This document shows, piece by piece, positions 1,128 through 5,160 of a stretch of 64,000 nucleotides of DNA. The translations under genes and the position numbers were made by a program. The notes under the pieces were generated by a model. It ran no database searches. It was not told where the DNA came from and was given only the letters and a program-made list of their open reading frames with translations. The DNA lies in the NCBI GenBank assembly GCA_019753125.1, contig JAIELH010000031.1, forward strand, positions 1 through 64,000. The letters run 5' to 3'. Origin of the DNA: Gallionellaceae bacterium. Lineage in GTDB: Bacteria > Pseudomonadota > Gammaproteobacteria > Burkholderiales > Gallionellaceae. How positions within the stretch are numbered: the first letter of the stretch is position 1; each line of letters begins with the position of its first letter.

Positions 1128-1452
1128 TCAGACCGATGGGAGAGCGTGGCAGCAATCATTTATGCTGTGCCACCGCCGAAGGCGCAACACCCGTAACCGC
1201 TCAGGCACATGAACTATCGGTACAGGCAAATCTGGAGAGCGTTGGCTTGACCAACCACCGAAGGGGCACGCGATTTTTTTAATGCCTCTAAGAACCGTAG
1301 CGAGCGATTTGAATGCAAGGCGCACGGAACGCAGAAACCGGAATGTACACAGCAGTACATGAGGATTTCGAGTACCGCGCAACGCAGCAGTCAATTCGCG
1401 CAGTAGGTTATTAGAGGCATTACCGTAATCTCTCAGGTACCAAGGACAGATG
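1128..1452 (+). ncRNA. Tandem glycine riboswitch (two aptamers) upstream of gcvT; second aptamer carries a ~143 bp insertion
   Basis: Aptamer 1: accgat...gggagag...ccgccgaaggcgcaa...cgctcaggcac...atcggt. Aptamer 2: atctggagag...gttggcttgaccaac...ccgaaggggca...[insert]...aatctctcaggtaccaaggacagat. Conserved glycine-aptamer motifs directly upstream of gcvT. Confidence 0.88.
1280..1422. repeat. Terminal-inverted-repeat mini-element inserted in the P3 arm of glycine aptamer 2
   Basis: taatgcctctaa (1280-1291) / ttagaggcatta (1411-1422), perfect 12-bp TIRs around a non-coding ~119 bp core. Confidence 0.75.
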
Positions 1453-1500: not shown

Positions 1501-2583
1501 ATGACCTTGAAACAAACACCCTTGAATGCCGCCCATCGCGCGATGGGCGCAAAAATGGTCGATTTTGGCGGCTGGGACATGCCGGTGAACTATGGCTCGC
1601 AGATCGACGAACATCACCAGGTGCGCAACGATTGCGGCATGTTCGACGTGTGCCACATGCGCGTGGTCGACGCGAAGGGCGACGGTGTGCGCGCGTTCCT
1701 GCGCTACCTGTTGGCCAACAATGCCGACAAGCTCACGCTGCCCGGCAAGGCGCTGTATTCCGCGATGCTGCGCCCGGACGGCGGCGTGATCGACGACCTG
1801 ATCATCTATTTCATGACCGAACAGTGGTTCCGCATCGTCGTCAATGCGGGCACGGCGGACAAGGACATCGCGTGGATGAAACAGCAGGCCGCAGCACACG
1901 CGCCACAACTGGCGATCACCTCGCGCGACGATCTGGCGATGGTCGCGGTGCAGGGGCCGAACGCACGCGCCAGAGTGTGGCAGGTGCTGCCCCAGACCAA
2001 AGCAGCGACCGAGGGATTGCAGAATTTTCAGGCCGCCGACTGCGGCGAATACTTTATCGCGCGCACCGGTTACACCGGCGAAGACGGCTTCGAGGTGATG
2101 CTGCTAAAAAGTGCGGTCGAAGCGTTCTGGTACGCGCTGAACCAGGCGGGTGTCAAACCGATCGGCCTCGGCGCGCGCGATACGCTGCGGCTCGAAGCGG
2201 GCATGAACCTGTACGGGCAGGACATGGACGAGAGCATCAACCCGCTGGAAGCCGGCATGGCCTGGACCGTGGACCTGAAGAGCCCGCGCGACTTCATCGG
2301 CAAGGCGGCGCTGCTGGCAAACCCGCCGACACGCAAACTGGTCGGCCTGGTATTGCTGGATCGCGGCGTGCTGCGCGGCCACCAGCAAGTCCATACGGCG
2401 CATGGCGAGGGCGAGATCACCAGCGGCAGTTTCTCGCCGACGCTGGAGAAATCCATCGCGCTGGCGCGCGTGCCGAACGGCGTGCAAATCGGCGACACCG
2501 TGCAGGTCGCAATCCGCGATAAAATGCTCGTGGCGCAGGTGGTGAAATACCCGTTCGCGCGCCACGGCAAAGGTTTGATTTAA
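1501..2583 (+). CDS. gcvT: Glycine cleavage system aminomethyltransferase T
   Basis: [53 protein letters not shown]; start reassigned from the ORF track's 1450 to the ATG at 1501 behind agaggca. Confidence 0.95.
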
Positions 2584-3076: not shown

Positions 3077-3181
3077 AACTGCGGGGAAGGGAGAAGGGTT
3101 AAGGAGGAAGGGTAAAACCTTGGGCGCGCAAAGCGCGCCACCCTTCTCCCTTCCCTCTTCCCCCTTCTCCAAGGATTTAAT

Positions 3182-5055: not shown

Positions 5056-5060
5056 CATGG

Positions 5061-5133
5061 TCATTCCCGCGCAGGCGGGAATCCAGCGTATTTATTCAAG
5101 GTGAGTCATGGATTCCCGCCTGCGCGGGAATGA
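5061..5133. repeat. Pair of oppositely oriented dRS3-like repeats (ATTCCC-N8-GGGAAT)
   Basis: attcccgcgcaggcgggaat (5063-5082) and attcccgcctgcgcgggaat (5112-5131), reverse complements of each other with flanking tc/ga. Confidence 0.85.
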
Positions 5134-5160
5134 CAAGGGTTAAGTTTTAAAGGTATTTTT

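Follow-up and report, generated by a model that had tools for sequence, protein, structure and literature searches.

The glycine cleavage operon near the start of the window (by which we mean the whole 64,000-nucleotide stretch of DNA that was analysed) is preceded by a tandem glycine riboswitch whose second aptamer is split by an element with features of a mobile sequence. The usual view of a riboswitch aptamer is that of a compact, conserved sensor. This locus raises the question of where such an insertion came from, and of how a riboswitch can accommodate it.

The leader and its insert

In an Rfam scan of the window, both aptamers, which are on the forward strand, score above the gathering cut-off of 32 bits for RF00504. 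Aptamer 1 (positions 1127-1226) has a score of 57.5 bits. Aptamer 2 (1227-1457), whose P3b is split by the element such that 152 nt are treated as an insert, barely passes at 32.7 bits. Its score is lower with the insert; two scans gave 32.7 and 41.2 bits, as against roughly 47-61 bits in relatives with short loops. The core motifs GGAGAG (1234-1239), CCGAAGG (1258-1264) and CTCAGG (1432-1437) are all outside the element. An intrinsic terminator consisting of GGGG, a 13-pair stem and a T run follows aptamer 2 on the same strand (1452-1485), and is likely the expression platform; a T run is present 3′ of aptamer 2 in 128 of 134 relatives. The CCC in the P3b loop of aptamer 1 (1190-1192, forward strand) is a candidate pseudoknot partner of the GGGG at 1452-1455, and all 134 relatives have both the CCC and a G run (GGG) after aptamer 2. 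The regulated gene is gcvT (1501-2583, forward strand), which is followed in the ORF table by gcvH and two gcvP subunit genes. The nearest relatives of its GcvT are those of Gallionella and Gallionellaceae MAGs. The invaded switch would presumably still respond to glycine. In some relatives (L018, L027, L033, L037, L047, L106, L113, L114 and others), an extra 80-190 nt or so is found between the terminator and the start of gcvT.

The element (1280-1422, 143 bp) is entirely within P3b of aptamer 2. Its ends are perfect 12-bp arms, TAATGCCTCTAA (1280-1291) and TTAGAGGCATTA (1411-1422), which are part of 17-nt terminal arms (1280-1296 and 1406-1422) with 94% complementarity. The 110-bp core (1297-1406), GTAGCGAGCG...GCGCAGTAG, is common to the 26 copies that we compared. 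The element is flanked by CGCGATTTTTT on the left and CCGT on the right. It is MITE-like in having TIRs and no transposase gene, for which 143 bp is too short; by eye, we found no clear target site duplication at family A, as we call this repeat.

As RNA, the element has a predicted folding energy of -58.3 kcal/mol, compared to -33.2 +/- 3.4 kcal/mol in shuffled sequences (z = -7.35), and none of 200 shuffles was as good. When the native pairs of aptamer 2 are enforced in the window RNA, the predicted cost over the unconstrained fold is 1.8 kcal/mol, and the insert stacks on P3b. The corresponding cost in the other three family-A carriers is 0 to 1.2 kcal/mol. Being palindromic, the inserts close themselves.

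An earlier note on this DNA had described an element of about 143 bp with perfect 12-bp TIRs inside aptamer 2, and had placed all conserved core motifs outside it; both descriptions agree with the sequence. The aptamer does not resume directly at AATC, as the note had it, but rather at CCGTAATC after CCGT. The note also proposed a search with the Rfam glycine model, which does find aptamer 2 with the insert present, and suggested that the TIRs could extend the peripheral P3 helix, a view that the modelled stacking on P3b supports.

A dispersed repeat with conserved pairing

The same genome has partial or diverged copies of family A (75-82%) at four further loci, and 55 of 76 Gallionella genomes contain matches. 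We counted at least 321 matches over these 76 genomes, a number that is a lower bound because few candidates were scored per genome. Copies of the core are located at many unrelated loci. The dispersed copies have a common core of approximately 109 bp, GTAGCGAGC...GCGCAGTAG, and their arms contain a CCTCTAA-like sequence but are highly variable. The arms differ from copy to copy, yet they are complementary within most copies, with compensatory changes. In an alignment of 26 copies, 92.2% of cells are paired, as compared to 77.6% after shuffling and 32-46% after sliding. Two-sided changes are found in 32 of 37 pairs (14.4 in shuffles), including 16 of 16 pairs in the outer arms. Since pairing and two-sided changes are both far above the controls, we conclude that family A is maintained as a hairpin. 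This upkeep might be achieved through selection or through template-switch correction of palindromes.

Family A is distantly related to sX9 (RF02228), a Xanthomonas sRNA in Rfam. The window copy matches this model with 25.6 bits on the minus strand, i.e., below the gathering cut-off of 44 bits, and several relatives score 31-39 bits. The cut-off is reached only by the copy in G040 (44.9 bits), a genome that belongs to a different family of the same order. Similarity to this copy suggests that sX9 is apparently a member of the same repeat family. In the G040 riboswitch (L011), the sX9-scoring element likewise occupies P3b of aptamer 2, where it is oriented oppositely to the copy in the window.

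A second, shortened palindrome resembling family A is situated just upstream of aptamer 1 (977-1075). Its 20-nt arms (TATACATAGCGACA...) are 95% complementary and are the same as those of a full copy at G000:C47, and it holds a shortened remnant of another repeat, family E (see below). With this palindrome beside the leader, two such elements flank or enter one leader.

Insertions across related riboswitches

We assembled a census of 135 distinct tandem glycine riboswitches, mostly of the iron-oxidising Gallionellaceae, and determined the lengths of five intervals in each. The sources were genomes of the family, together with some relatives at the order level and 80 named relatives. Counting aptamer-2 intervals of at least 45 nt in P3b or at least 40 nt in P2, we found insertions or extensions in 44 of the 135 riboswitches, i.e., in about one leader in three. 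Twenty of these are in P3b and 27 in P2, with 3 in both. No aptamer-2 insert is present in the other 91, and P3b is empty by this threshold in 115. Aptamer 1 presents a different picture: its P3b interval is 26-27 nt in 134 of 134 cases, so that none reaches 45 nt, as against 20 of 135 in aptamer 2 (p = 9e-7, relatedness ignored). The linker measures 34-36 nt in 134 of 135 riboswitches, with a single exception of 47 nt, and we found no invasion of either aptamer-1 P3b or the linker in the census. The only clear large insertion in P2 of aptamer 1 is that of a Nitrotoga-like riboswitch (L198), where the interval is about 156 nt.

Several unrelated sequences occupy the loops of aptamer 2. At least four unrelated palindromic repeat families (A, B, C and D) are inserted in its stems, along with shorter or single sequences, and a fifth (E) is nested in two of them. 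Family B is a palindrome, GTCATTCCCGCG...CGGGAATGAC; family C is a palindrome built of TTAGTCG-like units; and family D is characterized by CCCTCGCCC/GGGAGAGGG. Families B, C and D are repeated in their genomes, with 2-58 half-sites per strand for B, 2-34 for D, and up to 41 matches for C. Repeat E is nested at the tips of the D and B hairpins. In each of the riboswitch pairs L045/L240 and L248/L237, the two members have the same D insert but differ in whether E is present, thus forming clean empty/filled pairs. The earlier note did not have this wider pattern, in which the window riboswitch is one of 44, two loops are affected and several unrelated repeat families are involved.

Our preferred explanation, to which we assign a probability of roughly 0.8, is that the peripheral stems of aptamer 2 tolerate hairpin repeats that close on themselves, so that such repeats can land and be exchanged there, with the core left intact. 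A dispersed palindromic repeat, which is family A in the window, would have lodged at the tip of P3b. Because it would fold as one long hairpin, its arms would close the gap opened by the insertion, and the transcript would be a tandem glycine riboswitch with a lengthened P3b, normal in all other respects and with an intrinsic terminator at its end. In Gallionellaceae, the outer loops of P2 and P3b in aptamer 2 would be the riboswitch’s tolerant sites, which families A, B, C and D (E being nested within D and B) would have entered repeatedly, in part through new insertions and probably in part through recombination of leader segments between species. The linker and P3b of aptamer 1, with its proposed pseudoknot and tertiary contacts, would stay uninvaded. 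Published contacts suggest how the sites may differ. Adenines in the P3 of each aptamer contact the P1 of its partner (PMC12060979), and another study describes a pseudoknot in which a C tract of P3b pairs with a G tract that follows aptamer 2 (PMC13104608). We infer that these contacts lock P3b of aptamer 1, and that the tips of P2 and P3b in aptamer 2 point outward. The restriction to certain sites presumably reflects purifying selection, and the net effect of the insertions is most likely near-neutral tolerance.

On a gcvT tree, carriers of each family are scattered: the numbers of changes per number of carrier tips are 4/4 for A, 9/9 for B, 9/10 for C and 11/11 for D, where the changes set an upper limit on new insertions. 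A single clade of family-A carriers is rejected (p-AU 2e-68). To regard each change as a separate insertion would be too liberal, as shared flanks point to exchange of leaders. Among L001, L138 and L096, the family-A inserts have a similarity of 89-98%, whereas that of the neighbouring gcvT genes is about 78-84%, and several B, C and D inserts have flanks in common. It therefore appears probable that leader segments have been exchanged between species. Such transfer accounts for part of the insertion pattern, and the number of independent insertions is uncertain. Based on clearly different junctions or sequences, judged by eye, there are about a dozen separate insertions.

It might be supposed that the extended P3b is native and ancestral, and merely resembles a mobile element. 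Some relatives indeed have short extended hairpins of 65-72 nt with no recognised repeat, and the arm-plus-core motif of the riboswitch A copies, when no mismatch is allowed, is found only in riboswitches among 159 genomes. We nevertheless consider a native extension extremely improbable, and have discarded it in view of the core copies at many unrelated loci, the scattered carriers with empty relatives and the unrelated families in the same loop. The earlier note, which took the segment to be mobile, would have abandoned that idea had the segment been present in all related riboswitches and never found elsewhere. In fact, related copies exist elsewhere in this genome and in others, and 115 of the 135 riboswitches have no P3b insert of at least 45 nt.

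A different possibility is that the repeats actively target hairpin tips, in the form of extruded or single-stranded palindromic DNA, and that riboswitch stems are simply hit. The riboswitch inserts are located at stem tips, and E is nested not only in the tips of D and B but, by eye, also in family-A copies (at 977-1075 of the window and at G000:C10). However, P2 of aptamer 1 is also a hairpin, and has approximately one clear large insert. Moreover, selection would spare only insertions at tips, so position is no proof. Nor did we find an enzyme: the genome has one match to the Y1 transposase (PF01797, the only transposase family searched), and it is unlinked to the element. We regard active targeting as rather unlikely, although it is compatible with tolerant landing sites and does not exclude them.

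The insertions might also mark riboswitches in decay, in which aptamer 2 has been disabled and is on its way out. This idea draws on the reduced Rfam score and on single-sequence folding: native aptamer-2 pairing is the predicted minimum in 9 of 44 invaded riboswitches versus 53 of 91 others, and the median cost of the native fold is about 1.5 kcal/mol in invaded RNAs versus 0 in empty ones. Since the native fold is more rarely the minimum with an insert, insertion may have some cost. However, the window riboswitch still has intact core motifs, together with an intact CCC/GGGG pair, terminator and aptamer 1, and the same state recurs across many lineages, which makes decay very unlikely. The three core motifs are kept in 44 of 44 carriers, a figure that is biased because the census selected for near-intact motifs with few mismatches and would miss broken riboswitches.

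Finally, leaders might keep acquiring long hairpins under positive selection because the hairpin tunes the switch, by delaying aptamer-2 folding, by stabilising P3b or by changing cooperativity. In support of this hypothesis, 44 of 135 riboswitches have an insert in one or both of two small loops, families B and D appear always in one orientation, and family A is found in 3 riboswitches where about 0.015 would be expected if 321 copies were distributed uniformly over the intergenic DNA, assumed to total 250 kb per genome. However, tolerated landing combined with leader exchange yields the same pattern, and the common orientation may come from shared descent. Insert sequences and lengths also vary freely, and 91 of 135 relatives manage without one. 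Transcription passes the insert before aptamer 2 has been completed, which leaves the interval from aptamer 2 to the terminator unchanged, although the insert can lengthen the time during which aptamer 1 stands alone. We consider selected tuning unlikely, and our analyses revealed no effect on kinetics, cooperativity or termination timing, all of which the earlier note had raised. A related proposal holds that the inserted hairpins act as sites for RNase III or for pausing and thereby alter leader processing or folding, such that mobile palindromes become exchangeable tuning modules, swapped between species by recombination via the conserved aptamer flanks; this is distinctly unlikely. The tolerance of aptamer-2 loops for self-closing repeats is the reading that we carry into the comparisons below.

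Comparison to known systems and other palindromes

Repeats in the peripheral helices of rRNA and RNase P RNA are already known. In cyanobacteria, the RNase P RNA has short tandem repeats in a peripheral stem. There, too, a functional RNA has genomic repeats in one of its peripheral stems, but the repeats are tandem and the RNA is a ribozyme, whereas here long palindromes occur in a riboswitch. The intervening sequences of rRNA can hold an ORF and are classically cut out of the rRNA; the window element differs from them in being a short, non-coding palindrome in an mRNA sensor. There is nonetheless a likeness, in that the intervening sequences in helices 25 and 45 of 23S rRNA are selfish inserts in a peripheral helix with the core preserved, e.g., the 428-nt intervening sequence of Coxiella burnetii (PMC4990558). 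The palindromic elements of Rickettsia (approximately 150 bp) are similar to family A in size, palindromy and the existence of several families inside functional sequence, a likeness based on their description in a review, where they lie inside protein genes (PMC10969869). The gcvT riboswitch of Neisseria gonorrhoeae is a tandem glycine riboswitch that also has a long P3 in aptamer 2 and for which a glycine response was shown; a 73-nt loop in this P3 is thus compatible with the response (PMC13104608). However, this P3 is not described as a repeat, is predicted to adopt a Y shape and is coupled to a translational platform (PMC13104608). We found no earlier report of riboswitches with MITE, palindromic or REP insertions in the open-licence literature.

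Taken as filled and empty sites, the 135 leaders constitute a natural insertion scan that distinguishes loops able to accommodate a further helix of 30-150 nt from those that are not. The resulting map, in which P2 and P3b of aptamer 2 are open while P3b of aptamer 1 and the linker are closed, fits the published contacts between aptamers and the proposed pseudoknot. With it, the tolerance of individual loops can be tested directly, and the map suggests where designed insertions would be safe. There is a warning as well, in that covariance-model searches can under-score or miss riboswitches that contain repeats.

We considered RNase P RNA as a second victim of families A-E. A motif scan found no marker motifs of these families in the RNase P RNA loci, and the extra sequence in the fetched loci proved to be other stems, which indicates that not every structured RNA is invaded by these families. 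The rnpB gene of G096 looks split because its contig ends there. In Gallionella, the length of RNase P RNA ranges from about 349 to 519 nt (e.g., G000:C97:1742-2161, which is L257, and L266-L270), and several genomes have in common a set of stems of 64 nt and, separately, an insert of some 110 nt.

Within the window’s gcv operon, a B-type element with perfect 26-bp arms (GTCATTCCCGCGCAGGCGGGAATCCA) is located between the two gcvP genes (5060-5134). Inverted repeats are also present in the gcvT-gcvH gap (2588-2648) and the gcvH-gcvP gap (3084-3170), so that the leader and these intergenic gaps of the operon all contain palindromes.
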